From positions 916,369 through 980,368 of the forward strand of contig NZ_KV917376.1 of assembly GCF_002019695.1 (NCBI RefSeq): a DNA stretch of 64,000 nucleotides. Direction: 5' to 3'. Both the position numbers and the translations under genes were made by a program. Positions 16,665 to 30,404 of this stretch are shown piece after piece. The stretch is from Evansella clarkii (GTDB taxonomy: Bacteria; Bacillota; Bacilli; Bacillales; Salisediminibacteriaceae). The first letter of the stretch is position 1. Each line of letters opens with the position of its first letter. The notes under the pieces are model-generated. The model worked only from the letters and a program-made list of their open reading frames with translations, was not told the origin of the DNA and searched no databases.

Positions 16665-16708
16665 AAAAGACGGCCAGCCTCTTGAGTTGAAGGTTTGGCC
16701 GTCTTTTT
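16665..16708 (+). terminator. Terminator of the Csp-like gene
   Basis: AAAAGACGGCCA and TGGCCGTCTTTT form a 12-bp stem seven bases after the stop, followed by T. Confidence 0.9.
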
Positions 16709-16784
16709 AAATGCTACTTAATCATTTGCATTACTAAAATGAAAGGATCACACTGAGCAGAGATGCTTAAAGGCGGAATATAAT

Positions 16785-17399
16785 TTAATCTAATTCAATT
16801 GTATGAGCAGTTCGTTTAGCTGTCTCTTCGTCAAATAATTTGCTAACAACATGTAAGGCCATCTGAATTCCTGCGGATATACCTGCTGAAGTAATAACAT
16901 TTCCTTCATCCACATACTTAACTCCTCTAATAACTTCTACTTCTGGGAAACTTCTCTCTAACAGATTTAAGGCTACCCGATTTGTAGTCGCTTTTTTCCC
17001 GTTAAGAATTCCCGCTTGGGCTAAGAAAAATGCTCCAGTACATACAGATGCTACTATCTTATCCTTATAGTTCTCAATCCAAGATATTATTTCTTTATTA
17101 CTCCCTACTAACTTTAATGCTTTTAATGGACCTCCAGGAACAATAATAATGTCAAATTTCGGTGCATTGAAAAAACTGTAATCAGGCTTTACTTGCAGAC
17201 CGTTATGTACTGTTATTTGCTTCCCATCTTGAGAAACTGTATTTACCATAAACGGTTTATCCTCTAAATTGCTAGAGAAGAGTTTTTTTACATCGTTATT
17301 ACTATAAGTAGTTAAGTTAAAAACTTCATAGGGGCCAGCAAAATCTAAAGCATCAACACAATCAAATAGCAGTATACCTACATGATATTTCCTGAGCAT
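16785..17399 (-). CDS. DJ-1/PfpI-family protein
   Basis: 204 residues of the glutamine-amidotransferase-like fold. The nucleophile elbow is ASVCTGAFFLA (C120), and an acidic residue near the N terminus (E25) can polarise it, as in DJ-1, GATase1-like and AraC N-domain proteins. Members include glyoxalase III-like enzymes, deglycases and thiol-stress proteins; the exact activity is not predictable. A CsoR/CstR-type box lies directly before it, suggesting induction by copper or reactive sulfur/carbonyl stress. AGGAGG precedes the ATG. Confidence 0.88.
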   Translation of the reverse strand: MLRKYHVGILLFDCVDALDFAGPYEVFNLTTYSNNDVKKLFSSNLEDKPFMVNTVSQDGKQITVHNGLQVKPDYSFFNAPKFDIIIVPGGPLKALKLVGSNKEIISWIENYKDKIVASVCTGAFFLAQAGILNGKKATTNRVALNLLERSFPEVEVIRGVKYVDEGNVITSAGISAGIQMALHVVSKLFDEETAKRTAHTIELD

Positions 17400-17422
17400 T
17401 TTATTAACCTCCTTTTAAATAT

Positions 17423-17439
17423 ACACCCCCCTAGGGTAT
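17423..17439 (-). promoter_or_regulatory. CsoR/CstR-type box before the DJ-1/PfpI gene
   Basis: ATACCCTAGGGGGGTGT on the minus strand matches the copA box closely. It lies only 24 bases before the start codon. The best upstream -10 (TATAAT, 17452-17457) would place the box just downstream of the start point, as a road-block operator. The promoter itself is uncertain. Confidence 0.7.
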
Positions 17440-17753
17440 AAAAAGCAAGCGATTATATATTTGTTATCAAAGTCCCCGTTTTTTTAGTCACATATTCAGT
17501 TTATTCCATCAATCAATTTTTAACATAAATAACCAAATCATTTTTATTCTTTTTAAATACACACGGTAAATGACCATAAATTCACAAGGATAGAAACGGT
17601 TATTTCCAACCGATGGAATAGGGGAGTGAATCACTATAAATTTTACGACTTTTTAGTAGCAAAGGATTAATATAGCAATAAAAGACCTATGTGATTTCCT
17701 GTCTGAAAATCCATGCGTTTTCCTTTGTGATTTGATTGTTTGCACCTTGGAGT

Positions 17754-17791
17754 AAACCCATACCAATACTCACGGTATGGGTTTTTTTTTT
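17754..17791 (+). terminator. Strong intrinsic terminator with no gene upstream
   Basis: AAACCCATACC, a 9-base loop and GGTATGGGTTT are followed by a long T run on the plus strand. No plus-strand gene lies in the 350 bases before it, so it may end a small RNA or be left over from a deleted gene. Confidence 0.85.
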
Positions 17792-18310
17792 GGCATCAGA
17801 TACGTAGATCATGCTGACAACAGAAGCATCCCATGCATAACTCGTTCCGCACGGCATGTCACACGGTATGCGTACAGCATGACGCATAATTTGCTTATTT
17901 TATGGACCATGCGGTGAATACCGGGGTGGTTTTACGGGATGACACACGGTATGCGTACACGGTGCGACATCTCGTACTGAATTTATACGTACGGAGTACC
18001 GCACCAGATGGTGATGCGTATGGGATGACATATACCGTACGTATCTCATGCCATATCTCGTACGCATTTGATGATTAACAGGGTGTGCGTATGGTATGCG
18101 GTATTGTGTGCGTATCTGGTGCGAGATGCGGTGCAGGATGTTCGGATGGTTATACGGTGCGGTATGTCATGCGTATCTTGTTTTGCATGACGTGCGTATG
18201 AAATACGCATCGCATGTTAGTGCATATAACGTACGGAAATTATCGGTAATTGATGTCGCACCGGATGTGATACGGCGTACGGCACGGTATGCGTTTCGGG
18301 TTGCATCCGC
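17792..18310. repeat. GCGTA/GTATGCG-rich degenerate repeat tract
   Basis: Roughly 500 bases are saturated with variants of GTATGCG, GTGCGTAT and TACGTACG on both strands. One 17-base unit, CACACGGTATGCGTACA, occurs exactly twice (17860-17876 and 17943-17959), and GTGTGCGTAT occurs at 18083 and 18106. Open frames across it read as monotonous MRYAVR-like peptides without ribosome-binding sites and are not genes. Confidence 0.7.
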
Positions 18311-18358
18311 AACCGGTTAACAATTCGAGATCAAAATTCGTAAATAAAAGGAGCGATT

Positions 18359-18856
18359 ATGATGGCAGATTACAAATATAAAGGATTAACCGCATATATC
18401 AAACAAAACGAGGCGAATGCCGATCGATTTATGGTGCTCAGAAACGCCGTAGAAAGCCTTCAGAGCAGCGTGGAGGAGCGTTCTGTAGATATGAGTGCTT
18501 ATGGAAGCATTGTCGGCTCAGAGGCTTACAAGCACCTTTATGACAACGATTCTATGACATTCGCAGAGGACTTCGAACTCCCGAATGAAACGCCACCGGA
18601 GTACGCCCGCGCAGTGGTAGAGCGGGTGACGGTAAAAGGCGTTATGCTTCACCGCGTGTACATCCCGGCGGTGTCAAAACGCGAAGAAAGCGCTCATGAT
18701 TTTATCTATAACGCTCTGCGTCCAGTGCTTTTAGAGCTATTCGGCGAAGACCTGATTCACATGGTGATGAAAGAATCTGTGGAGTACGAGAACTTCAAAG
18801 ACGGAAAAGAAACGATTTTAGTCTCTGTGGAGGACCGCGAGGCGGTTACCGCCTAA
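18359..18856 (+). CDS. Hypothetical protein, orphan
   Basis: 165 residues, not recognised. AAAAGGAGCG precedes two consecutive ATGs. The sequence looks like a soluble, mixed alpha/beta, acidic protein: helical first third (NEANADRFMVLRNAVESLQSSVEE), a central charged part and a strand-rich end (TILVSVEDREAVTA). No signal peptide, membrane helix or cysteine. Codon use is visibly more G+C-rich than the copper genes to the left. A strong terminator follows directly, so it is a one-gene unit between two anomalous non-coding blocks. Possibly element-borne. Confidence 0.75.
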   Translation: MMADYKYKGLTAYIKQNEANADRFMVLRNAVESLQSSVEERSVDMSAYGSIVGSEAYKHLYDNDSMTFAEDFELPNETPPEYARAVVERVTVKGVMLHRVYIPAVSKREESAHDFIYNALRPVLLELFGEDLIHMVMKESVEYENFKDGKETILVSVEDREAVTA

Positions 18857-18863
18857 AATCACG

Positions 18864-18902
18864 GAACCGACAGCCTTTTCAGGGCCGTCGGTTCTTTTTT
18901 TT
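18864..18902 (+). terminator. Terminator of the orphan gene
   Basis: GAACCGAC and GTCGGTTC (with one inner mismatch, then GCC/GGC) precede eight T, right after the stop codon. Confidence 0.9.
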
Positions 18903-18982
18903 ATGACACCAGAGTGGATCTCTCTTTGGAACTACCAGACCGTCTCTCCCGACCCGTAAACCCTGGAACCAAGCGCTTTAGA

Positions 18983-19905
18983 GCGGGTCCCGCGTCGGTC
19001 GGTGGTCCTTCTCGACTCTCTCGCTGCGCTCGTATAACCGCTCCCTCCTTCCCCCTCTAAATCGCTTAAAAGCCCTTCTTACAAACAGCGTGGGTCCCGC
19101 CTGACCTACGGTGGTTCTTCCTGACTTTTTCCACTTCACACTTCGTGTGTACAAACCCTCTTTTTTGTCATACAACCGCCTCGGTCAGCCCCCGCTGTTT
19201 GACGAATGTCTCTTTCTTGCTTTCTCTTTTTCTGACGTTTCGCTCCGATGACTCTCCGCTTCTCTATCACCTTTTTGACAGCTTCCCCTACCTCCTTTTC
19301 TGGCAACTCCCCGCTCTCCCTGATCGAATACCTGGCCGTCCTCCCGGCTCGATTATCAGCTCGTAGACACGCCCCATATGCCGCTCTGATCCGCCTCTAT
19401 CGGAGTGCCTTCCGGGGCGGAATACGCGCCGGAATCCGCTGACGGACTCGTCATACGCCAATCTCGTCAGATGGAGCTTGACGGATTTTGCGATTCCCAT
19501 AACGGCGCGGTTTACCGGCGCTTGAATCCGTGACGGATTTTACTATGGTGTCTCGCGCATGGGGCGTATCTGTTGGCGCGCCTGGTTTGTTGGAGGGTGT
19601 GGTATTTGCGGCGTGGTATCGGTACGGGTAGGGGAAAGAGCATAAGGGGGACGTATGACAAGCCTCGCTTCGCTCATTTGTCAGTCAGCATAGCTGACCG
19701 TCCCCCTTACTGCGAACAGGAACGCTTGCGCCTCCCTGTTCTTGGTCCTACGGACTGCTCATTCGAAAGCTCCTGTTCGTCGCTTTCTATTGGAAGACAT
19801 TCTCCTTCACTCCCACGGCGATCATTCGTGATCCCCAAGTCCGTTCCGGTAGAAACCCCTATTGAACGAACCGTGTGTACAAAACAAAGCTCACCGCTTC
19901 GTTCG
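18983..19905. other. Dense array of short inverted repeats
   Basis: Many perfect short palindromes in 0.9 kb: GCGGGTCCCGC (18983-18993), CACAC-TTC-GTGTG (19137-19149), AATCCGTGACGGATT (19525-19539), the three-way junction (19644-19708), GAACAGG/CCTGTTC (19714-19741), GAAAGC/GCTTTC (19765-19787), GATCA-TTCG-TGATC (19820-19833) and GAACGAA/TTCGTTC (19864-19904). TTC/TTCG loops recur. A GGGTCCCGC...GGTGGT(C/T)CTTC module is repeated at 18985 and 19092. This looks like structured RNA or single-stranded-DNA signals rather than coding DNA. Confidence 0.6.
19644..19708. other. Candidate three-way-junction structure
   Basis: An outer 10-bp perfect stem (AAGGGGGACG, 19644-19653, with CGTCCCCCTT, 19699-19708) encloses two hairpins that fill the interior almost exactly: TGACAA...TTGTCA (19656-19683) and GTCAGC-ATA-GCTGAC (19684-19698). 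Only two bases stay unpaired at the junction. Either strand could fold this way. Confidence 0.6.
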
Positions 19906-20120
19906 TACATACACTAAAGAATTATCGGACGTACACCTTTCTTAAATACCTGACCGATGAGGGAGGACTTGCTCCATAATAGACTGACTATCCTTTGAAT
20001 TATCACCTTATTTTTTCATAACGGGTTCACTTGTGAGGTGCAAAATGCAATAACACAGACCAAATCACAAGGTAAATCACATAATATTTGTTTATGATTC
20101 ACAGTATAATTCACATTTAA

Positions 20121-20149
20121 AGGCTTAGAGGAGAATCTCCTCAAAGCCT
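20121..20149. other. Inverted repeat
   Basis: AGGCTT(A)GAGGAG, AAT, CTCCTC(A)AAGCCT: a 12-bp stem with one A-A mismatch and a short, T-poor flank. It may be a backup terminator between the CBASS unit and the structured block. Confidence 0.5.
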
Positions 20150-20185
20150 ATTTCTTTATATTGCTTATTCAATTAAAGCCCCAAA

Positions 20186-20210
20186 ATCTTGAAAGACTCA
20201 GTTTCAAGAT
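20186..20210 (-). terminator. Probable terminator of the CBASS operon
   Basis: ATCTTGAAA, a 7-base loop and TTTCAAGAT followed by TTT on the minus strand, about 100 bases beyond the cap5 stop. Confidence 0.6.
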
Positions 20211-20313
20211 AATTTAACAAGATACAGAATTCCACTGTTGAATTATTTTTATGAAAAAGAATAGATACTGTAACATAATCTAATGTAGCTTCTTAGATTT
20301 CTTTTAAAACCCA

Positions 20314-21426
20314 TTAAATAGTGATGGCGCTATGATATTTTTTTTCATCCCTAATTTTGTACTCATACAAATGAATCACTGGTAGCATATTTTGATTAAT
20401 GCAGCGGCCAAGTTCCACAGCCAATCCTGCAGGACCAAAATAGAACAAGTGAATTTCTGAATACTGATTTTCACCTTGTAATCTGTATACCTCTTTTCGG
20501 AAGGCACTTTTCAGAACTTCAACATCATTCTTGTATAAAACAGCATTTAATTCCGGCTTGTCAATTTTGATATCCAAGCTTTGGAATGAACCATCAACCG
20601 CATCTTTTATATCCTGTTCATGAATATTCCCGCTCACTTGTACGGTGACTACCAACTTATCATGAACGTATTCCGATATCTTTACTTCTGGAAGCCCGAC
20701 ATTTTTATCAAGGTTCGCATTTTCATGACACCACATTTGTGTGTCCCTATCAAATTGATGAACGACAGCAGCAGTTGTATCGGAAATCAGACTTCCCAAA
20801 TGAATTAATAACGGAATCGGAGACAGTGGGAAAACAAAAAGGTAGGTACCCTCATTTTCTCTCTTTGAATTCACCACTTTACGGAAGAAATCCTCATTAT
20901 CATTCTTCGCAGTTTTCCAACCCTCTTCTGTGAAATCAGTAAATTCCTCTTGCAAAGAAACCGCGTCTAACAATAAACAGTTCGTCTCCTTTGATAAAAG
21001 GATGGAATCGACGGGCATTGGGTTTTTTCGTTTATGAACCACCACGATAGCCTTATTTTTCTTAGAAAGCTGTTCTCTCACCCAGCTTTCATGTTCTTCT
21101 TTCATATAAAACAAATCAGTAGGAGGGTACGCTTTAATATTGGTGTCAATGGTATGGTGACACTGACTACACATAAGCATAATGTTATTAAGAGAATCAA
21201 TATTTTCATCAGTAATGTCAAATTCTTCAGCAAATTCTCGTCTCGGTCCGCCCTGCTTCCCTTTTCCCTTTGCCTTCCCAATAATATGAGCTCTCTCTCC
21301 TATATTTACTTTTGCATCAACATCATCCAAAATTAAGGCCGTCTTACACTTGGCACACATTCCACCTGAACTTACCCATAAAGATCGGTCTTCTGCCGTG
21401 GATAATTTAAAAGGGTCCCTGCTCAT
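20314..21426 (-). CDS. cap5: CBASS effector Cap5 (HNH-SAVED nuclease)
   Basis: 370 residues. The N-terminal HNH nuclease has C24xxC27, H47 in RAHIIG, then N81 and C86xxC89-H90 (NIMLMCSQCHH). The C-terminal half (about 170-370) is a SAVED domain, with PIPLLIHLGSLISDTTAAVVHQFDR near 203 and the late motif FYFGPAGLAVELGR near 328. In studied Cap5 proteins SAVED binds the cyclic dinucleotide made by the CD-NTase and switches on non-specific double-strand DNA cutting, killing the infected cell. Its ATG overlaps the cap3 stop (ATGA), so it is the last gene of the unit. The nucleotide species it senses is not predictable here. Confidence 0.94.
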   Translation of the reverse strand: MSRDPFKLSTAEDRSLWVSSGGMCAKCKTALILDDVDAKVNIGERAHIIGKAKGKGKQGGPRREFAEEFDITDENIDSLNNIMLMCSQCHHTIDTNIKAYPPTDLFYMKEEHESWVREQLSKKNKAIVVVHKRKNPMPVDSILLSKETNCLLLDAVSLQEEFTDFTEEGWKTAKNDNEDFFRKVVNSKRENEGTYLFVFPLSPIPLLIHLGSLISDTTAAVVHQFDRDTQMWCHENANLDKNVGLPEVKISEYVHDKLVVTVQVSGNIHEQDIKDAVDGSFQSLDIKIDKPELNAVLYKNDVEVLKSAFRKEVYRLQGENQYSEIHLFYFGPAGLAVELGRCINQNMLPVIHLYEYKIRDEKKYHSAITI

Positions 21427-21899
21427 TTATTCCACACCTCTAACTTATTTATTTTTACATTTCTCCGATTACCCACCCACGCTCCGATAGATTCAGTACC
21501 GATAATGAAGAAAAAAAGAAGTGATGATTCACACTGTGTCTTTCTCAACACTTTCTTCCACTCCCTTCTATCGTGGAAAGAAGGGGAAGGATGTTTCTCT
21601 GGATGAGTGTGCCATTCTCCCAAATAATTAAAGGTGCCATCACTTTCTTCCCAAATTTCATCAACTAGGTCCTGATGGGTTTCCAGGTGCTTTTTAAAGA
21701 AACACCTTTTTCGTATGTCTTTTTCCGTTGGTTCAGTTATTAAATCAATGATAATGTCATCAGAGTCTTCTATGAACCGTCCCATTAAAACTCCTCCCGC
21801 TTCTGTAGCAGTGCTTTCTAGTTGACGATACACACGGAACCTCTCTATAACCTCATCGTTTATCTTTAATTTAGAGGTTGGACCTAAGATGAAAATCAT
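21423..21899 (-). CDS. cap3: CBASS Cap3, JAMM-type isopeptidase
   Basis: 158 residues of the JAB/MPN metalloprotease fold. The zinc site is complete: E33 (TEAGGVLMG) and HTHxxxxxxxSxxD with H97, H99, S107 and D110. In type II CBASS, Cap3 cleaves the CD-NTase from targets to which Cap2 has joined it, restraining the response. Start overlaps the cap2 stop by four bases (ATGA). Confidence 0.93.
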   Translation of the reverse strand: MIFILGPTSKLKINDEVIERFRVYRQLESTATEAGGVLMGRFIEDSDDIIIDLITEPTEKDIRKRCFFKKHLETHQDLVDEIWEESDGTFNYLGEWHTHPEKHPSPSFHDRREWKKVLRKTQCESSLLFFFIIGTESIGAWVGNRRNVKINKLEVWNK

Positions 21900-23707
21900 G
21901 GTGTTTCACCCGCCTGACATATTGCACAATTTACATTCTTATATAGGTAACGAGTATCAAACAGTCTGTCAGAAGAAAATTCATACCTCTGACTTAAGTG
22001 ATATCCTTGGCTGAGGAGTTCCGAGGAATCACCCTTCCAAGACATAAGCGGGTTGTCTGTTTCTTCTCCTGTCAAAACCCGTAAAGCCAATCTGGTCGCC
22101 ATAACGGCTGTCTGAAGGGCATCTATTGAACCATAGGGAGTGAATACAGATTGACACCCTGCTAACGATTTGCGGAAATTCTGACCAGGAGCTGCAAATG
22201 ACGCCTGGTTTGCAACTAATCGTTTTGGGTCATCAGGTCGAGAGAATAAACACTGAAAGCAGCCCTTTGTTCCTTTTTTGGTTGATAAGGTATGCCCACC
22301 TATACCAAGGGGGTCCAGCCATGTGAAAATGATAGGTGGCGCGCCGTCCATTTGACGTATCACTTCATTTAAGTATAGCTCTTCCGTCGGGGAACCGAGA
22401 GCGATGATAATTAAGTCAGATTCAAGCAACAGTTGAGGTTCTTCATTGAAGATTTCCAAAATATCCGAGGTTTCATATTCAACCTCGATAAACGGAAATT
22501 TATTCTTCATAGCTCTTTTTATCGCCTCTGTCTTAGGAAAATGATAATATCTATCGGTACCTTTAAAATAAAGATCACTTATTCCTAATTCATGCCGATA
22601 AACGTTATCGATATCTAGGGTGTCTTTGTCTACCAAAGTAAACCTGCCAACCCCCGCTCGTGCTAATTCAAAGCATATCCTGCTTCCTAATGAGCCTAGC
22701 CCAACGACCGTCACTCTCTTACCTGAGATTCTGTTATGCCCCTGGGTTCTATTTAGTAAGTAGCCCTTATCATGTCGTTTGATCTCCAATGGAGTCATTT
22801 CAAATACCGCTTGTTTTTTTCTCAAAGGGTGGAGAAAAGGAAAATGCTTTCCTTTTCCCTGTTGAGCACGGAAATCAAAAAGCTTTAACCCTATAAGAGC
22901 TCTTTGCTCTTTTAGAATAGGGATTCCAAGTACGATATACTCTTCATCCCCCTTTTGTATTAATTTCTTCTTCAAATATTGCTTGAGCCTTCTCTTGGTT
23001 GAAGCCGTAATATTGTTGTTGATAAGCTTTCGATAGTCCTTGATATCCCACTTCTCCCAAAATGCAGGTGGTCTCAAGGAAGATGACTTTCTTAAAGGGA
23101 TATATATTCCTTTGCTCTCTTTAAACTCATCTAACACTCTGCTGCTATATAAATTGTTCATATATTGAACTGTATTTTCATTGATTCTATCTAATAAAAT
23201 TGACTTTTTTCGCTTCTCATCGTGATAAACCACTATATTTTTAAAACGCTCTTCTGGAGTAATAATAGCATCCACACGGCATATCCCTTCTTGCCTTGAC
23301 CAAAGCGCTTCAAACTCAACCAAGAAGTCCTCTGAGTTCAACTTAAGAACGCCCTCTTCCAGCGTTCTTTTTGCACGTTGAAAGGATTCATGTATAATCC
23401 CCCTCGGATTGTTCCTATCGAGCAGTACCCCTTCATCATGCGAATAGCAGATAAATCCATCTGGCTCTATATGAGGAATAAATCCAGCTTCTTGACGATT
23501 CTTCAAGAAATACATTGGCTTTTTCAACGGAAAGTGAGAAGGAAGAGCAAGCTGAATCGTAATTTGCTCTTCCGACACACTAATCTTCCCCTCGAATGCA
23601 TAGATAAACTGACTCCGTTCACTTTTTACTTGGTGTACATCTACTGCCTGAACTTCGGTAAAAAGCTCGCCTAAATCCAGATTTTCAATAGTAAAAACAT
23701 CCGACAT
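21896..23707 (-). CDS. cap2: CBASS Cap2, E2-E1 fusion
   Basis: About 603 residues from the ATG of MSDVF, which has GAGGTG five bases upstream (a GTG two codons earlier is less likely). Residue numbers here count from that GTG. The N-terminal E2-like domain has candidate thioester Cys C89 (EPDGFICYSH). The C-terminal ThiF/E1 domain has VVGLGSLGS (336-344), D362, catalytic-loop C520 (LAGCQSVFTPYGS) and two CxxC pairs (485/488, 596/599), probably binding zinc. Cap2 adenylates the CD-NTase C terminus and conjugates it to a target, priming nucleotide synthesis. Nine bases separate it from the CD-NTase stop. Confidence 0.94.
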   Translation of the reverse strand: MSDVFTIENLDLGELFTEVQAVDVHQVKSERSQFIYAFEGKISVSEEQITIQLALPSHFPLKKPMYFLKNRQEAGFIPHIEPDGFICYSHDEGVLLDRNNPRGIIHESFQRAKRTLEEGVLKLNSEDFLVEFEALWSRQEGICRVDAIITPEERFKNIVVYHDEKRKKSILLDRINENTVQYMNNLYSSRVLDEFKESKGIYIPLRKSSSLRPPAFWEKWDIKDYRKLINNNITASTKRRLKQYLKKKLIQKGDEEYIVLGIPILKEQRALIGLKLFDFRAQQGKGKHFPFLHPLRKKQAVFEMTPLEIKRHDKGYLLNRTQGHNRISGKRVTVVGLGSLGSRICFELARAGVGRFTLVDKDTLDIDNVYRHELGISDLYFKGTDRYYHFPKTEAIKRAMKNKFPFIEVEYETSDILEIFNEEPQLLLESDLIIIALGSPTEELYLNEVIRQMDGAPPIIFTWLDPLGIGGHTLSTKKGTKGCFQCLFSRPDDPKRLVANQASFAAPGQNFRKSLAGCQSVFTPYGSIDALQTAVMATRLALRVLTGEETDNPLMSWKGDSSELLSQGYHLSQRYEFSSDRLFDTRYLYKNVNCAICQAGETP

Positions 23708-23716
23708 AAACACACC

Positions 23717-24754
23717 TCATGCAGAAGAATTGTCTACCATGATGGCTGGTCCTCTCTGCTGAGCAGATTCCTTTTTGGTCGGAACAGGGAAGTCTTGTCC
23801 GAACACTTTTTGTAAAATTTCGCATGCCTTTACTGGGTCGGCTTCATCTCTTGCCTCTTTCAAACTATCACGCAAGGATTCCAGTTTTAACTTGAAATTT
23901 TTCATTTGGCTGCCTGTCATCTTCTCATAAATATCATTATATGGAGGGGTAGGTAGATTTACCTCTAACCGATCTTCCCATTCACCGTCATCGTTAATCC
24001 TACAACTAAAAGAGTTAATCATATTTTGAACAAACGATTCCAATGCGTCCAAGTCATCGTATATTTTTGTAAATGCGTTATAAGAAAAATGCGGATAAAA
24101 ATGAGTCAAGCCTGCTACCGTTAACCCTATCCCTGAAGGTCGGTTCACGACACTCTTAAACTTTAAATCTTTCCATCGCTTTAAATATCGGATAACCCTT
24201 CTGAATTGCTTGCGGTCTTCTGAATCAGTAAGGTTTTCTTTAATGGTTCTCACCAACTCTTTTGGGTCAGAATGCTCCCAGGTCCTGTTATCACTTCCGC
24301 TGCCGAGCTTCCCTTTGGCCAGATAAGTTTGACCATCAATATTTTCGTTTGAATAGATGGTAAAGTCTACATGGTAATTGCGGTCGTCCTCATCATCTTC
24401 ACCTTCGAACTTTACAGTCACACAAGGATACTTCATCTCGGTGTTTTCATAATCATCCTTCAAAGCATTATATACAAGCTTCTTTGTTGTAACTGGATTT
24501 GGATAATCTACTGTTGAGATGTTAAACAATAGGCCGACATCGATATCATAGTCACCATCCTCAAATGGCTTAACTCCAGTGTGCATCGTATAGCTACCTT
24601 GATGAAAAATATCATACTTGCCTTCTTCAAAGTCGATGTTTTCTTTTAAGACATCAAGCAACTCCTCACGTTTTTCTCTCAAGACTTTGTTATCATCGAT
24701 TTCTAACTTGATTGCATCATGAAAACTAAGGAAATAAGATTGCAGGTTCCCCAT
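23717..24754 (-). CDS. CBASS CD-NTase (cyclic oligonucleotide synthase)
   Basis: 345 residues with a Pol-beta-like nucleotidyltransferase core: GS motif at G53-S54 (HQGSYTMHTG), paired aspartates D70/D72 (DYDIDVG) and third acid D130 (YHVDFTIY). This is the cGAS/DncV-like pattern, and the downstream Cap2-Cap3-Cap5 set identifies it as the CBASS sensor that makes a cyclic di- or trinucleotide on phage infection. The chain ends in ...NSSA: a small terminal residue (Ala/Gly) is what Cap2 activates in studied type II systems. AGGAGG lies nine bases before ATG; it is the first gene of the operon. Clade and product are not assignable by eye. Confidence 0.92.
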   Translation of the reverse strand: MGNLQSYFLSFHDAIKLEIDDNKVLREKREELLDVLKENIDFEEGKYDIFHQGSYTMHTGVKPFEDGDYDIDVGLLFNISTVDYPNPVTTKKLVYNALKDDYENTEMKYPCVTVKFEGEDDEDDRNYHVDFTIYSNENIDGQTYLAKGKLGSGSDNRTWEHSDPKELVRTIKENLTDSEDRKQFRRVIRYLKRWKDLKFKSVVNRPSGIGLTVAGLTHFYPHFSYNAFTKIYDDLDALESFVQNMINSFSCRINDDGEWEDRLEVNLPTPPYNDIYEKMTGSQMKNFKLKLESLRDSLKEARDEADPVKACEILQKVFGQDFPVPTKKESAQQRGPAIMVDNSSA

Positions 24755-25399
24755 CCCTTTGTACCTCCTAATAAAAATTTTTATAGTCTGATGCTTTTGC
24801 TTTGGTGTAGGCTTTCCAAAAAGCTAAGTGAGAAGAGAAATTCATCTAGATAAAAAAGCACTAACGCATACATTCGTGTTGTTGAGATATTAACATTATA
24901 CCTTTATACTATGAAACTTCTTTACGATTACAAAGTCGTTAAAGTTTCAATATTATGTTAATTCATTTTAATTATAAGTAATTTTTCACGAAAATGTAGT
25001 AGTAGCCCCCCTATCCTTCCTACATATTATCTTGCAACTGAGTCTTCAACTATCCTGCCCGTGAATTGAATAGCGGCAATTATTATCCTTATTTTAATAT
25101 TTTTCATTCGATCTTCGTTAATCCCCCGGAAAAAACAAACGTCAATCGCATTAAATTCACATGCCCTACAATAATTATTTCCACCCTTAATAATTGGGGT
25201 GTGATTTCGTATTAAGATTTAACGACCAAAATGTGTTCGACACCTGATATATCCACACTTATAGTACTGTGAATTTCAATGTGAAATACAATCGTTTTAC
25301 TTAGGCATTTTCTTGTTTGCATCTCTGAATTAACCCGTTATTCTTTTTCTTAATGGATTTTTTCTGTTTATTTGGAAAATATATTGATGAGGTGATTAG
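24755..25399. promoter_or_regulatory. Divergent region upstream of CBASS and the nuclease gene
   Basis: 645 AT-rich bases that must hold both promoters. An imperfect inverted repeat, TGAAACTT..TTACGA..TCGTTAA.AGTTTCA (24912-24949), could be an operator for the CBASS promoter. No gene, no further repeat and no clear -35/-10 pair was found. Confidence 0.4.
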
Positions 25400-26350
25400 A
25401 TGGAATTCAATTTAGAGATTTTAAAACAATCATATGGTGTTTTTAAAGTGGATTACCGACAAGACCAAGGAAAAAGGTATTTCGTATACGGGTATCAGCA
25501 TGATGAGGAAGAATGGGATTTTGATAATGGAGACCTTTTAATGGTACTTGATGAAAAGGAGCAAATAAATGAGCTGAAAAGAAACTTTACAATTTTCTAT
25601 AACAATGAATGGCTTTGTAAAACCTGTTTTAAACATAAAAAAGTAGAAAGATTAAAAGTAGAAAAAATAAAACATTGGGGATGGACAGCTTGGGAAGGGT
25701 TACCAAGTAATTTGATGAAGAAATTGCAAAATAAGATTCTTGTTGGAATACCTGAGTTTTCTTGGAAAAATGTTAAGAGGCTTGATGATCATAATTCAAA
25801 TTGTTTTATTGATTTTAACATTTGTACTGAATGCATGAGTGAGGATGAATATGATAGTAAGTTTTCGGATATTATCAAACAGCTTGAGCTTTGGGAGCTT
25901 GAATTGGCTACTGAGGCCATTTTAGAAGGTAACGAAAAAGTGCTAGAAGGCTATATTGCACACAACATTGAAATAGTCGAAACCGATATGAAATTGATTG
26001 ATACGCAAGTAAAGGTGAAAGAAGGCGTAATTGATATATTGGCTGAAGATAAAAATGGTACCACCTGTATTATTGAATTAAAGGTTAGAACGAATGATAA
26101 AAATTTAATTTGGCAGTCTGCGTATTATCAATCAGAAATAGAAGAAGACGTAAGAGTGATTACTATAGCACCTTCTTATGAGGACGTAATTAGTAAAGCA
26201 TTACTGAACGTTAAAAATATTGAGATGAAAATATTTAATCGGGATGACAAAGGACTACTTCAGATTGAAAATTTTGAGCCAAACCAAACAGTAAAACTAT
26301 CCGACAAACTAAGACTATTAGCTAATGAAGAGAAAGATAAAGCAATTTAA
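25400..26350 (+). CDS. Zinc-ribbon-like protein with C-terminal NucS-type PD-(D/E)XK nuclease domain
   Basis: 316 residues. The N-terminal ~165 have two separated cysteine pairs, C73xxC76 and C142xxC145, probably a zinc ribbon; I recognise no family there. From about 170 the sequence follows the NucS/DUF91 nuclease pattern: NEKVLEGYIAHNIE, then GVIDILAEDKNG with D212, then CIIELK with E226 and K228, then QSAYYQSEIE. NucS relatives cut mismatched or branched DNA. The start follows GAGGTG. Placed between the CBASS operon and the integrase module, it is probably element cargo and a candidate defence or element-maintenance nuclease (inference). Confidence 0.75.
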   Translation: MEFNLEILKQSYGVFKVDYRQDQGKRYFVYGYQHDEEEWDFDNGDLLMVLDEKEQINELKRNFTIFYNNEWLCKTCFKHKKVERLKVEKIKHWGWTAWEGLPSNLMKKLQNKILVGIPEFSWKNVKRLDDHNSNCFIDFNICTECMSEDEYDSKFSDIIKQLELWELELATEAILEGNEKVLEGYIAHNIEIVETDMKLIDTQVKVKEGVIDILAEDKNGTTCIIELKVRTNDKNLIWQSAYYQSEIEEDVRVITIAPSYEDVISKALLNVKNIEMKIFNRDDKGLLQIENFEPNQTVKLSDKLRLLANEEKDKAI

Positions 26351-26434
26351 CCTTTCAAGTTTTTTAGTTATAACATCACTCTAGCTTCGTTCGTTTAATA
26401 AAGCATATTATCTTATATTTATTGATGTTTTTTT

Positions 26435-26808
26435 GTTCCTGCTTTGTTCCTTTTTGGGGTCAAAATGTTCCTTTTTCGGCCTAAATGTTCCTATTTTGCG
26501 GTCATTTTTGCATGCGTGCAAGTATTATTTAATATGTAAGCGGTTTCAGTTTTGCATCGTAATTATGCCGTTTTTGCATGCATGCAAGTAATTTAGACTG
26601 ATTTGTTCCTTTTTTCCTTCAAATGTCCCTGCGATGTCCCTGGAGTCACAGGCAAAAAAGGAACAGCTAAATCCTTTCGTATCAAGGGGTCACGCAATTA
26701 TGTTCCTTTGTTCCTCTTTTTTTTAATGAAAGACTATATAAAAAAAATATAATATATACGTATGTTACGCATATAAAGTTTTCTCGAAAAAACCAGGAAC
26801 GGAGGAAC
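26435..26808. repeat. GTTCC iteron-like array
   Basis: Ten GTTCC/GGAAC words in 374 bases: plus strand at 26435, 26446, 26467, 26487, 26605, 26702 and 26710; minus strand at 26660, 26796 and 26804. Most sit in TGTTCCTTTTT-like contexts. The first four are 11, 21 and 20 bases apart, i.e. on one face of the helix; two pairs are 8 apart. Confidence 0.65.
26505..26590. repeat. Pair of TTGCATGC(A/G)TGCAA palindromes
   Basis: A 20-base element occurs at 26505-26524 and 26571-26590, 19 of 20 bases identical and 66 bases apart. The core TTGCATGCATGCAA is a perfect palindrome in the second copy. Probably a protein-binding site. Confidence 0.65.
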
Positions 26809-26962
26809 ATTTTCGAGTTCGAGGTATGTCTAAAAGGGAAAAGCTTCCTCAAACGACCGCGACTTTGTTCTGTGACTGAGTTAAAATTTAATATAAAAAT
26901 CTAATGACTTCGGAAAGCTTTAAGTTGCAGTTGAATATCACTAGGCTCCCTTCCCAAAATTT

Positions 26963-27100
26963 TTAGCGGGATTTCATCAATAGAAAAAAGCCGATTATCT
27001 TCCAACAATTTGGAAGATAATCGGCTATTTCTTCTGTTATGTCTAATTGTGACCGAACAAATGCTGTTGTACTTAGTTCTTCATTTATCCTTCGATACAT
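26963..27100 (-). CDS. Possible 45-residue peptide downstream of the excisionase-like gene
   Basis: A frame MYRRINEELSTTAFVRSQLD... starts three bases after TGAGG and ends in TAA. It reads straight through the 17-bp terminator hairpin, which argues against translation of its second half. Weak candidate. Confidence 0.25.
   Translation of the reverse strand: MYRRINEELSTTAFVRSQLDITEEIADYLPNCWKIIGFFLLMKSR
26983..27026 (-). terminator. Very strong terminator of the excisionase-like transcript
   Basis: A perfect 17-bp stem (AGCCGATTATCTTCCAA) with a 4-base loop is followed by six T on the minus strand, about 130 bases after the stop of the gene at 27160. Confidence 0.9.
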
Positions 27101-27159
27101 TAGCCTCATTCAGCCATAGTTTCCTTGTTTACGTATCGCCTGCCAGCGATTTACTTATT

Positions 27160-27450
27160 TTATATCAGGTTTTCAATTTTTTTATATTTACTCACGAATT
27201 TAATAACATCCTCACGATCGACAAGCACCTTACCTTCTAACTCAATAATTGGTAAGCCAAGTTTTTCCAATTTTTGCAAATGCCCAAAAGAAATGCCAAT
27301 AAACTCACAACATTGCTTTTTCGTCATAAACCTCCCCGCTCCACTTTCTTTTTTAGCAGCTTCAAAAGCTTCTTTGCTGAGTTCATAAAATAACTCATAA
27401 TAATTACTCTTAAACTCATCTGAGACTTGCAATGGTATAAAACCCTTCAT
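27160..27450 (-). CDS. Excisionase-like / DUF771-type helix-turn-helix protein
   Basis: 96 residues from MKGFIPLQ, preceded by GGGGGAGG; a longer frame starts 15 codons upstream without a comparable site. The second half is a MerR/excisionase-type winged helix: MTKKQCCEFIGISFGHLQKLEKLGLPIIELEGKVLVDREDVIKFV. Such proteins occur next to phage-type repressors and act as excisionases or early regulators. It is divergent from the XRE repressor, with shared operators between them. Confidence 0.75.
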   Translation of the reverse strand: MKGFIPLQVSDEFKSNYYELFYELSKEAFEAAKKESGAGRFMTKKQCCEFIGISFGHLQKLEKLGLPIIELEGKVLVDREDVIKFVSKYKKIENLI

Positions 27451-27471
27451 TAGCTTCGTCCTCCCCCTTTG

Positions 27472-27562
27472 TTTACTTAGTAAGTATATTATCACTCACT
27501 TAATTGTAAATTATTTCCATATTAATTTCAACTTTTAGTTAGAAAAAACTTTACTTAGTAAA
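27472..27562. promoter_or_regulatory. Paired TTTACTTAGTAAA operators
   Basis: TTTACTTAGTAA(G/A) occurs at 27472-27484 and as perfect palindrome TTTACTTAGTAAA at 27550-27562, between the divergent excisionase-like and repressor genes. Two copies 78 bases apart are what one expects for repressor sites controlling both directions. Confidence 0.65.
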
Positions 27563-27613
27563 GTAAACATGTGATAATAATGTTAATTAAACTAAAAAAA
27601 GGAGGGGATTCTA

Positions 27614-28129
27614 TTGGATGCTAAAGAATTCGGGACCAAACTCAAAGAGATTCGGAAAAAGAAAAAATTAACTTTACTCGACTTAAAAGAACGAACGGGC
27701 TACTCTGATTCTTATTTATCTCAAATAGAAAACGGTTATAAAGATTTACCTAAACCCGCCTTACTAAGAAAGCTTGCTATAGGGTTAGACATTTCACCTG
27801 TTTATCTAATGAAATTAGCCGGCTACTCTGAGTCTTATATTGATGTTGAGAATGGTCTTGTTATATATGAGGGGAATGAGCCGGTTAAGGATGAAAAATT
27901 CCTAAATAAAACAAGAACTATAGATGTCAACCTTCCATGTATTGAAGAAGTGAAAACAGAAAACAGAGAGCAATCTATTAGAGAATTATCCGATGACGAA
28001 TTAAGAAGAAGATTATTTGACCTTCATGATCTTCTTAGTATGAAGATTGACTTGTACTATAAGAACGAATCTTTAACAGACGAAAAACGTAAAAAAGTTA
28101 GAACCATACTTGAATTAATTTTTGAATAA
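27614..28129 (+). CDS. XRE-family (phage-type) repressor
   Basis: 171 residues from a TTG start with GGAGGGG seven bases before it. The N-terminal HTH_3 domain is clear (KLKEIRKKKKLTLLDLKERTGYSDSYLSQIENG, about 8-40), followed by a helical C-terminal part that probably mediates dimerisation. No metallopeptidase or LexA-type peptidase domain is visible, so release from repression may need a partner. Divergent from the excisionase-like gene and directly upstream of the integrase, the usual lysogeny-module layout. Confidence 0.9.
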   Translation: MDAKEFGTKLKEIRKKKKLTLLDLKERTGYSDSYLSQIENGYKDLPKPALLRKLAIGLDISPVYLMKLAGYSESYIDVENGLVIYEGNEPVKDEKFLNKTRTIDVNLPCIEEVKTENREQSIRELSDDELRRRLFDLHDLLSMKIDLYYKNESLTDEKRKKVRTILELIFE

Positions 28130-28181
28130 GCATTTCCCTTTCCTGTATATAGCCTGCCAGCGTATTGGAAAGGAGACTATT

Positions 28182-29357
28182 ATGGCAAACATTAAAAAGT
28201 ACACAAAGAATGACGGTACCACCGCTTATATGTTTAATGCGTATCTCGGTAAGGATCCCCGTACTGGAAAAAAGAAACGAACGACACGACGGGGCTTCAA
28301 AACAAAAAAAGAAGCAAAAGTTGCACTATCTAAATTATTGGTGGAAGTCGATGAACACGGGCTCCGGCAAAATGAACAGATTACCTTTCAGGAAGTTTTT
28401 GAGGAATGGTTTAAGCAGCATCGTAGAGAAGTAAAACCTACTACAGTGTATGCGCTGGAGAGTAAATTCCGCAGGATTCTCCCGTTCTTCGGTCCTTACA
28501 AAATGAAAAACATATCCCGCTCGCATTGTCAAAAAGCTATCAACGCATGGGCCCAGGAGCTTAAAACTTTCAAGGATTATAAGATACAAGCAAACCAGGT
28601 CTTCCGATATGCCATGAAAATGGACATTATTAAGCGCAATCCGATGGATTATGTTACGCTGCCGAAACTAAAACATGAGATGGAATATAATGCGGAGCTG
28701 GAAGAAAAAAAGTATTACTACACGCGAGAAGAGCTCAGGAGCTTCCTAGAGGCGATTAAGGAGGACGACATGGGTTACACCATGTTTCGGCTACTCGCCT
28801 TCACAGGAGCACGTAAGGGGGAACTGTACGCCCTCCATTGGTCAGACGTGGACTTCCACCATAAGACGATCAGCTTGAAAAAGACTTTGATTCACACGAG
28901 TGGCAAAAAGCAGCTCCAGACATCCAAAACAAGGGCATCTCGGCGTGTGGTTAGCGTAGACGATGAAACTCTGGCGATCTTAAAGAAATGGCGTAGCAAG
29001 CAAATACAGCGCTATCTGACGTTAGAACTTTCCTCTTCTTTTCAATCTGATGATAAGCAGCCCGTCTTTACGGCCTTTAATCAGTTGAAACATGATATGG
29101 ATTATTGCCGACTGGCTTACTTGAATGAAAAGTTGGAGGGAATATATAAAAAGAATCCAGAGCTCCCGAAAATTAATGTTCACGCCTTTAGGCATACACA
29201 TGCCAGTTTGTTGTTTGCAGCTGGTGCTTCCATCAAAGATGTACAAGCTCGGCTTGGCCATACAGATATTCAAACCACAATGGATATCTATACTCATGTG
29301 ACCGATGAGGCGAAGGAGAAAACAGCGGAGATGTTCCAGAAGTACATGACATTTTAG
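28182..29357 (+). CDS. int: Tyrosine recombinase / integrase
   Basis: 391 residues from the ATG of MANIKK, with AAAGGAG nearby; an ATG 20 codons earlier overlaps the repressor stop and lacks a site. N-terminal AP2-like arm-binding domain (to about 65), SAM-like core-binding domain (about 70-160), C-terminal catalytic domain with R211 (TGARKGEL), H334xxR337 (HAFRHTHAS), H360 and nucleophile Y370 (MDIYTHV). Typical of Tn916/ICE and phage integrases of Firmicutes. It ends about 100 bases from the 3' end of rpsI, marking the integration boundary. Confidence 0.95.
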   Translation: MANIKKYTKNDGTTAYMFNAYLGKDPRTGKKKRTTRRGFKTKKEAKVALSKLLVEVDEHGLRQNEQITFQEVFEEWFKQHRREVKPTTVYALESKFRRILPFFGPYKMKNISRSHCQKAINAWAQELKTFKDYKIQANQVFRYAMKMDIIKRNPMDYVTLPKLKHEMEYNAELEEKKYYYTREELRSFLEAIKEDDMGYTMFRLLAFTGARKGELYALHWSDVDFHHKTISLKKTLIHTSGKKQLQTSKTRASRRVVSVDDETLAILKKWRSKQIQRYLTLELSSSFQSDDKQPVFTAFNQLKHDMDYCRLAYLNEKLEGIYKKNPELPKINVHAFRHTHASLLFAAGASIKDVQARLGHTDIQTTMDIYTHVTDEAKEKTAEMFQKYMTF

Positions 29358-29360
29358 CGC

Positions 29361-29382
29361 GGGGTATTCAAGGGGTATTCAA
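29361..29382. repeat. Tandem GGGGTATTCAA repeat at the integrase end
   Basis: Two perfect, directly adjacent 11-base copies begin three bases after the integrase stop. Their position suits integrase arm-type binding sites next to the attachment core. Confidence 0.65.
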
Positions 29383-29400
29383 TTCCAAATCTGGACATGA

Positions 29401-29436
29401 AAAAGCCCTCCCTGCTCCATAAGAGCAAAGAGGGCA
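29401..29436 (-). terminator. Terminator of the rplM-rpsI transcript
   Basis: GCCCTC/GAGGGC outer stem with inner TTGCTC/GGAGCA, followed by five T on the minus strand, 22 bases after the rpsI stop. The element lies just beyond it. Confidence 0.85.
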
Positions 29437-29458
29437 AACCCTTGGTATATAAGGTTTA

Positions 29459-29851
29459 TTAACGCTTCGAGAACTGAGGTGCACGACGAGCAGCTTTAAG
29501 ACCGTATTTCTTACGCTCTTTCATACGAGCGTCACGAGTCAGGAAGCCTGCTTTCTTAAGAGATCCACGGTACTCAGGATCTGCGCCAAGAAGTGCACGA
29601 GCAACTCCATGACGGATAGCTCCCGCTTGTCCTGTGTATCCTCCGCCGCTTACATTTACTAATACATCGTAGCTGCCTTCAGTTTGAGTTTCCACTAATG
29701 GCTGCTTAACAATTAACTTTAAAGTTTCAAGGTCAAAGTAGTCGTTGATGTCACGGTTGTTGATCACGATGCGTCCGTCACCTGGTACGAGACGTACACG
29801 TGCAACAGAGTTCTTACGACGACCTGTTCCATAATATTGAACCTGTGCCAA
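29459..29851 (-). CDS. rpsI: Ribosomal protein S9
   Basis: 130 residues, full length, from [19 protein letters not shown] to the basic tail APQFSKR, whose final residues reach the P-site tRNA. It lies 21 bases after rplM, the universal pair. Its 3' end borders the mobile element, but the coding sequence is intact. Confidence 0.98.
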
Positions 29852-29872
29852 GAAAATTCCCTCCTTCTATAA

Positions 29873-30310
29873 TTAACCGCGCAGTTCGTATGCTTCCGGC
29901 TTTTGTGCTTGATGTGGGTGCTCACTGCCTGCATAAACGTGAAGCTTCATGCCTTGCTTGCGTCCTAAAGAATTCTTTGGAAGCATTCCTTTGATCGCTA
30001 ACTCAAGCATTCTTTCAGGCTTCTTGTCAAGCATCTCCTGAGCTGTAGTAGTCTTAAGACCACCATTGTACTGACTGTGGCGATAGTACTTCTTGTCAGC
30101 TAATTTGTTACCTGTTAAATGAATTTTCTCCGCATTGATAATGATTACGTGGTCTCCAGTATCGATATGCGGTGTATATGTTGGCTTGTTCTTTCCGCGA
30201 AGGATGCTCGCTACCTCACTTGAAAGGCGACCGAGAGTTTGTCCTTCAGCGTCAACAACATACCACTTACGCTCAACTTCGCTTGGCTTTGCCATATATG
30301 TTGTACGCAT
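29873..30310 (-). CDS. rplM: Ribosomal protein L13
   Basis: 145 residues ([29 protein letters not shown]...), an early-assembling large-subunit protein. TAGGAGG precedes the ATG. It has its own promoter 94 or so bases upstream, separate from truA, and is cotranscribed with rpsI. Confidence 0.98.
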
Positions 30311-30404
30311 TATTTTCCCTCCTAAACATGCTTTGCTTTATCATTTTAATCTGAGTCAAACCGTCATAGATTCCGTACCCGGGGCTAGTGGGCTTAGAAT
30401 ACCA
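30311..30404 (-). promoter_or_regulatory. 5' leader of rplM-rpsI
   Basis: About 94 bases between the predicted start point and the rplM ATG. In Bacillus a conserved L13 leader RNA occupies this place. I cannot confirm its fold by eye; a CCCGGGTACGG segment could form part of it. Confidence 0.4.

Follow-up and report, generated by a model that had tools for sequence, protein, structure and literature searches.

What kind of operon lies at positions 20314–24754 of the stretch of Evansella clarkii DNA analysed here, and what carries it? The stretch, which we call the window, comprises 64,000 nucleotides (assembly GCF_002019695.1, contig NZ_KV917376.1, positions 916,369 to 980,368), and a first-pass annotation, made from its letters alone, had placed in it a complete type II cyclic-oligonucleotide-based anti-phage signalling system (CBASS) with a Cap5 nuclease effector. 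Our analysis indicates that the four genes very probably form such an operon, and that it is carried as cargo, flanked by the inverted tips of an apparent cassette that lacks a transposase, within an island integrated at rpsI. The coordinates of that annotation end short of both the inverted tips and the island, and it is the carriage in a transposase-less unit bounded by terminal inverted repeats (TIRs), more than the operon itself, that is the interesting part.

The gene content, gene order and open frames can be read directly from the DNA. As had been described, four open reading frames (ORFs) lie on the minus strand between 24754 and 20314, in the transcription order CD-NTase (cGAS/DncV-like nucleotidyltransferase), Cap2, Cap3 and HNH-SAVED effector. 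The first gene (23717–24754, 345 residues), which has AGGAGG upstream of its start, encodes the predicted oligonucleotide cyclase. It is followed by Cap2 (21896–23713, 605 residues from a GTG start), an E2-E1 fusion with E2 Cys89, E1 Cys520 and CxxC pairs at 485/488 and 596/599; by Cap3 (21423–21899, 158 residues), a JAMM/JAB isopeptidase; and by a Cap5-type effector (20314–21426, 370 residues) with an N-terminal HNH nuclease and a C-terminal SAVED sensor. Both the Cap2/Cap3 and the Cap3/Cap5 junctions are 4-base overlaps. Cap2 could begin at GTG 23713, leaving a gap of 3 bases to the cyclase gene, or two codons on at ATG 23707, leaving 9 bases; the ATG is the likelier start because AGGTG stands just before it. 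The 9-base gap given in the first-pass annotation agrees with the ATG, whereas its Cys89 and Cys520 were counted from the GTG, a trivial inconsistency.

The identities of the four proteins are supported by several collections of profiles. In PADLOC, all four have near full-length matches to CBASS models: the cyclase to PDLC00795 (E = 6.7e-124), Cap2 to the E1-E2 model PDLC00837 (8.3e-211), Cap3 to the JAB model PDLC00896 (2.1e-55) and the effector to the endonuclease model PDLC00747 (5.8e-149). Pfam places the cyclase in PF21654 (DncV-like, 1.1e-12) and PF18144 (SMODS, 1.4e-9), Cap2 in ThiF (2.3e-20) and Prok-E2_B (5.1e-16), Cap3 in Prok-JAB (4.4e-13) and the effector in SAVED (PF18145, 1.1e-37, 130 bits) and HNH_2 (5.9e-5); the effector also scores above the cut-off of the NCBIfam SAVED domain model. 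The PADLOC and Pfam E-values exclude a chance match. They bear out the earlier assignment to type II CBASS with a Cap5-type HNH-SAVED effector, including the SAVED and CD-NTase matches on which that assignment had been staked. Among structures in the PDB, the cyclase is related to 8ysc (4.2e-74) and Cap3 to 9ild, labelled "Peptidase" (4.4e-23), and the effector is related to 7rwk (4.7e-18), 8fm1 (9.6e-15) and 8ysq ("SAVED domain-containing protein"). The matches to 7rwk and 8fm1, which we take to be Cap5, span most of the protein.

The active sites are well conserved. Residues were counted in homologues scoring above 60 bits from the loci of the genome scan and from G016, a second genome of the same family; the cyclase of L029 and the Cap5 proteins of L041–L043 scored weaker and were not aligned. 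The cyclase residues G53-S54, D70-x-D72 and D130 are kept in all 18 homologues, E1 C520 of Cap2 in 14/14 and E2 C89 in 13/14, the exception (L039) being a split gene without that region. For Cap3, E33, H97, H99, S107 and D110 are kept in 13 of 13 homologues, and the HNH residues H47, N81 and H90 of the effector in 6 of 6. The catalytic patterns proposed from the single sequence (GS...DID...D in the cyclase, the two Cap2 cysteines and the five Cap3 residues) are therefore upheld by the alignments, and the claim that the operon is intact agrees with four open frames and conserved catalytic residues. The spacing of the cyclase residues also fits that of the Vibrio CdnG catalytic residues G56, S57, D73, D75 and D135 (PMC12804361).

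A further feature of the cyclase bears on its use as a conjugation substrate. It ends in ...NSSA, that is, at an alanine, as expected for type II CBASS conjugation: this position is usually occupied by Ala or Gly, and its mutation abolished immunity (PMC11153139). When 31 cyclase tails were aligned (L027, L028, L029, L086 and the duplicate L037 were dropped), 18 ended exactly at Ala or Gly, four ended in GRSS (L054, L098–L100) and one lacked the tail (L042). In eight of the 31 (L053, L090, L092–L097), the reading frame runs on for 2–7 residues past the conserved Ser-Ala before it stops, as it does in ubiquitin-like precursors; in these extended cyclases, maturation by Cap3 or another protease may be a prerequisite for the action of Cap2. 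Among the papers listed by one literature search, none joined a CBASS cyclase, Cap2 and Cap3 with a C-terminal extension.

The position of the effector, last rather than first, had been singled out in the first-pass annotation. The description is accurate, but we reject it as a novelty: the arrangement is ordinary, since it is shared by six related loci in one set of 15 and by 12 in another of 17, as well as by an active Bacillus cereus operon. Among the 15 loci of the genome scan, cyclase, Cap2, Cap3 and Cap5 follow one another on one strand in six (L030–L033, L041, L044), and these include Halalkalibacter oceani (L030), whose cyclase is 88% identical to that of the window, and Peribacillus and Domibacillus (L031–L033; 59–63%). 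Six Streptococcus loci (L035–L040) have cyclase, Cap2 and Cap3 with no Cap5 match, Cap2 of L039 being divided between two ORFs. Of the remainder, L043 lacks a Cap3 match and has its Cap5 match on the opposite strand, L042 lacks matches to Cap2 and Cap3 and shows only weak similarity to SAVED, ahead of the cyclase, and L034 is a lone cyclase near a contig end. The second set comprises 15 loci from a scan of the order together with L053 and L054 from G016 (L086 and L032 are one locus). Here the order cyclase-Cap2-Cap3-SAVED effector occurs in 12, with a strong effector match in seven (E ≤ 3e-92) and a weak one in five (3e-11 to 7e-14), and no effector match occurs in L054 and L098–L100. In one locus (L089, 5335–9697), Cap2 is interrupted, its two pieces lying about 2.5 kb apart.

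How does the operon compare with systems that have been characterized? The type II CBASS of B. cereus WPySW2, which we liken to it by description rather than by sequence, has the same cyclase, Cap2, Cap3 and nuclease-SAVED effector in last place, a cyclase C-terminal Ala and a Gram-positive host, but the effector there goes by the name Cap4 and responds to cA3, and the Cap2 cysteines are E2 C91 and E1 C403 (PMC11153139). It protects against four phage classes, but no longer does so once the E2 or the E1 cysteine of Cap2, or the terminal Ala of the cyclase, has been mutated (PMC11153139). An HNH-SAVED effector like that of the window is found in the CdnG-Cap5 systems of Asticcacaulis sp. and Lactococcus lactis, which differ in being called type II (short) (PMC8568899), and of Vibrio cholerae (PMC12804361). 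The profile of the window cyclase family, in contrast, matches Vibrio CdnG (9woo) at 2.1e-7 only, ranking it after 8ysc (1.5e-122) and CdnB (7ljo, 3.3e-28); a literature search on the identity of 8ysc returned nothing relevant, as judged by title. Judged by this ranking, the window cyclase is not obviously a member of clade G. The Cap5 systems cited above, by contrast, use CdnG and 3'2'-cGAMP; the nucleotide that activates the window effector may be this one or another.

The whole operon lies inside a 5.3-kb TIR-bounded unit (20019–25340). A DNA search with window positions 17450–20100 revealed two short stretches that recur in other genomes, at about 17518–17759 and at 19998–20084. Within the latter lies the left inverted end of the unit (20019–20084, plus strand), with its tip at 20019, 2 mismatches in 28 bases and a local score of 88. 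The right inverted end (25280–25340, plus strand) has a local score of 56, compared with at most 32 in 30 shuffles of the flank and with 25 and 30 in two control stretches. The two tips, which are observed directly, face each other correctly around the operon, and 100 kb of the surrounding region contain no further tip of either kind at ≤8 mismatches in the correct spacing. No transposase was recognised inside the unit. The other recurring stretch (17518–17759, plus strand) represents the right end of a different unit from this TIR family, with its outermost bases altered, as judged from the DNA search and from fetched loci.

Tips of this family recur around other cargo. Five fetched loci (L101–L105) contain units with tips TAACGGGTTTACTTGTGAGGTGCAAAAC... 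and ...GTTTGCACCTCTGAAGTAAACCCGTTA, 0.7–3.3 kb in length, with differing ORFs inside and with 7–9-bp target duplications read by eye. Eight further units (L147–L154) are 0.6–4.7 kb long, the short ones without an ORF of at least 80 residues, and six of them have 8–10-bp duplications (imperfect in L154), with none in L149 and L152; overall, target duplications of 7–10 bp accompany 11 of the 13 units examined elsewhere in the order. Searched as a 27-base pattern with ≤3 mismatches, the left tip occurs in 10 of 35 genomes of the bacterial family; the right-tip pattern, allowed ≤2 mismatches, turned up in 35 of the 397 genomes searched across the order, at up to 23 copies per genome, and the reversed control gave no hits in either case. 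Scanned cargo ORFs encode, among others, a SUKH protein, a zinc dehydrogenase, an acetyltransferase-like protein and a GntR-aminotransferase regulator. The scan, which took in 17 ORFs from seven units, yielded no partner transposase, the sole candidate being a sub-threshold OrfB_IS605 match (20.5 bits, cut-off 30.5) in a 116-residue ORF of L153. A separate 3.9-kb unit (L152) encodes a 647-residue protein (778–2721) with no Pfam or NCBIfam match, which could be either cargo or a candidate transposition protein. Mobile insertion cassettes (MICs) are not known to encode a transposase. One of them, MIC231 of B. cereus, similarly has inverted ends with passenger genes, and target duplications of the IS4 family are about 10 bp (9 for IS10 and 8–9 for IS50), but IS231 tips begin with CAT, whereas those of the window family begin with TAACGGG (PMC2266710).

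The TIR unit sits near one end of an island of about 48 kb inserted at the 3' end of rpsI. We take the target gene (29459–29851, minus strand) to be rpsI, encoding ribosomal protein S9, from its translation; a search with this region found matches in 60 of 60 genomes, including that of E. clarkii. A tyrosine recombinase (integrase) gene abuts the rpsI 3' end (28122–29357, plus strand; Pfam Phage_integrase, 4.7e-22, Phage_int_SAM_3 and Arm-DNA-bind_4), and a 68-bp attachment (att) repeat at 29454–29521 forms the right island end. A genome search located the partner copy, 95.6% identical, at G000:C1:897646–897713 of the same genome, 18.7 kb to the left of the window; because this copy lies outside, a repeat finder applied to window positions 16700–30400 recognised no att repeat. 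A related genome, G003, has an empty site, in which the flanks are continuous and meet at the rpsI end, the right flank being 97% identical over 19.6 kb and the left 90–92% over C1:891251–897713. Together, the att copies and these continuous flanks give the length of the island. The query of the rpsI-region search extended into the integrase gene, covering its final 158 bases, and the observation that six other genomes (G007, G016, G031, G033, G041, G055) align into that part suggests a recurrent insertion site.

Next to the integrase gene are a helix-turn-helix regulator (27614–28129, plus strand; HTH_3, 6.7e-14) and a small protein of 111 residues (27160–27495, minus strand) that is possibly an excisionase-like accessory: it has no Pfam family and a weak PADLOC match to mad1 (6.9e-4), and its homologue lies beside an integrase in L038 (1.7e-6). 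This last locus, from Streptococcus gordonii, contains a related CBASS together with a homologous integrase and the homologue of the small protein (1089–2639). Pfam scans of 38 of the 42 listed island ORFs recognised two P-type ATPases, a multicopper oxidase, a cupredoxin, ZnuA, thiol-redox and two-component genes and LGT. The far end of the island, outside the window (L051, 2491–4700; G000:C1:898491–900700), contains a second E2, E1 (ThiF) and JAB set, degraded and split over several ORFs, adjoining a transposase pair that from its domains is presumably IS3-like. No relaxase, conjugation or Tn7-type genes were recognised among the 38 ORFs. In this respect the island differs from the integrative conjugative and mobilizable elements with which it shares integration at rpsI (PMC5090054, PMC4701971), and from Tn7-like transposons, which likewise carry defence systems as cargo (PMC8649781).

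The distribution of the cyclase is uneven. Of the 35 family genomes searched, only that of E. clarkii itself and G016, whose protein is 42% identical, encode it, and none of the 8 other genomes of the genus does; across the order, 16 of 397 genomes, again counting its own, have a match at E ≤ 1e-40. This patchy spread, along with the 88% identity to the cyclase of Halalkalibacter oceani, fits horizontal transfer. A phage origin was considered and rejected, as 50,697 phage records gave one distant match (24% identity), and an IMG/VR scan, which detects close relatives only, confirmed no relative of the operon. On plasmids, the only DNA match was 102 bases at 76.5%, and cyclase relatives occur on 174 plasmid records, every one below 60% identity.

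On balance, and with modest confidence, we favour a model in which a complete CBASS operon was captured, as a unit of 5.3 kb, by a family of cassettes that lack a transposase and are widespread in Bacillales (tips TAACGGGTTTAC.../...GTAAACCCGTTA, 9-bp duplications, varied cargo). In this model the unit, nested in the rpsI island, would be movable in trans by a transposase encoded elsewhere, and the HNH-SAVED effector may respond to a nucleotide other than 3'2'-cGAMP. A number of observations weigh against this model or the identities on which it builds. The right tip of the unit is imperfect, with a one-base gap, and no target duplication is found outside the tips (outer bases ATTTTTTCA and TTCTTTTTC). 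Tips at ≤8 mismatches were also missing from 20 of 22 other CBASS loci scanned, and in the remaining two, L087 and L088, a sequence resembling the left tip (6 mismatches) follows the effector downstream, with no right tip. The four-gene loci of Halalkalibacter, Peribacillus and Domibacillus differ from the window in the same way, having no TIR-family tip at this threshold, although the flank of L030 is short because that locus begins 426 bases before the cyclase. Taken with the other same-family right end 2.3 kb to the left, these points would be expected if the inverted tips were leftovers of separate insertions rather than the two termini of a single unit with which the operon had moved. We consider this explanation a serious one but rather unlikely, given the correct facing of the tips, a right-end score well above the shuffle maximum and the lack of any other correctly spaced tip in the surrounding region.

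The remaining adverse points concern the operon. NCBIfam equivalog cut-offs were missed, with 122.8 of 150 bits for cGAS and 125.8 of 200 for Cap3; the HNH_2 match of the effector is weak (23.3 bits, cut-off 21); and the PDB matches of Cap2 are weak as well, the best being MoeB (1.6e-6) and a known Cap2, 7to3, reaching 1.7e-4. A consensus scan counted 11 promoter-like sites, compared with 16.8 expected (sd 4.1), and no promoter stands out among them; terminator-like sites numbered 2, compared with 3.3 expected. Scans for tRNAs and Rfam families gave no matches. An operon that is structurally complete but silent or inactive in its host, as a decaying passenger of the island, could account for the lack of a convincing promoter in that scan, for the broken E2-E1-JAB set at the far end of the same island and for the interrupted Cap2 of the related locus L089. 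Yet the four frames are open, AGGAGG precedes the cyclase and the active sites are conserved, and we regard this account as improbable. It is still less probable, indeed very much so, that the four genes serve a role other than anti-phage defence, for example in stress signalling or island stabilisation. In B. cereus, conjugation joins the cyclase to PspA, an envelope-stress protein (PMC11153139), and the window operon is itself cargo, but the nearest tested operon of the same make-up defends its host against phages (PMC11153139).

If the operon is, as we think, an anti-phage system, its characterized relatives suggest how conjugation, nucleotide synthesis, effector activation and phage protection would proceed. 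The E1 domain of Cap2 would activate the C-terminal Ala of the cyclase and pass it via the E2 Cys to a target Lys, and Cap3 would reverse this conjugation. Upon phage infection, the cyclase would become competent to make a cyclic oligonucleotide, which would bind the SAVED domain of Cap5, cause the effector to oligomerise and switch on its HNH nuclease. Ligand-activated DNA degradation by Cap5 has been described (PMC8568899; PMC12804361), and in Vibrio the nucleotide drives the association of Cap5 dimers into tetramers, which activates HNH DNA cleavage (PMC12804361). Cellular DNA would then be cut, and the infected cell would stop growing or die ahead of phage release. By analogy with other cassettes, the operon itself would travel as cassette cargo inside the rpsI-integrated island.

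Two other features lie close to the unit. Just beyond its right tip, at 25400–26350, a 316-residue ORF has a NucS C-terminal-type nuclease domain (PF01939, 6e-10) and is possibly another defence gene. We do not count it as a fifth gene of the operon, as it is divergent and 645 bases away, and it had no match in 18 related loci, three of them with only 1.5-kb flanks. To the left, between the neighbouring right end and the left end of the unit, is a GC-rich segment of 2 kb (17754–19960, GC 0.49–0.53) with 84% identical copies on another contig of the same genome (G000:C2:106242–108264, L069) and in another genus (G016:C1:808310–810103, L070). It contains a 165-residue ORF (18359–18856) with no Pfam or NCBIfam match. 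The apparently non-coding parts at 18200–18400 and 18900–19400 are conserved at 90–100% per 100 bases, compared with 48–92% in the ORF; the segment has no Rfam match and RNA fold z-scores of -2.0 (plus strand) and -1.3 (minus strand).

In summary, the E. clarkii locus is a further intact type II CBASS operon from a Gram-positive host, and its carriage can be defined at two levels: a TIR unit with tips that also flank other cargo elsewhere in the order, and an rpsI island whose ends are known and whose empty site is seen in a related genome. The operon is of a kind already known, and understanding of how CBASS works is unchanged. Since its cyclase is not obviously of clade G, the pairing of cyclase and effector and the choice of ligand become testable. 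If the unit is mobile, complete immune operons could hop without a transposase of their own.

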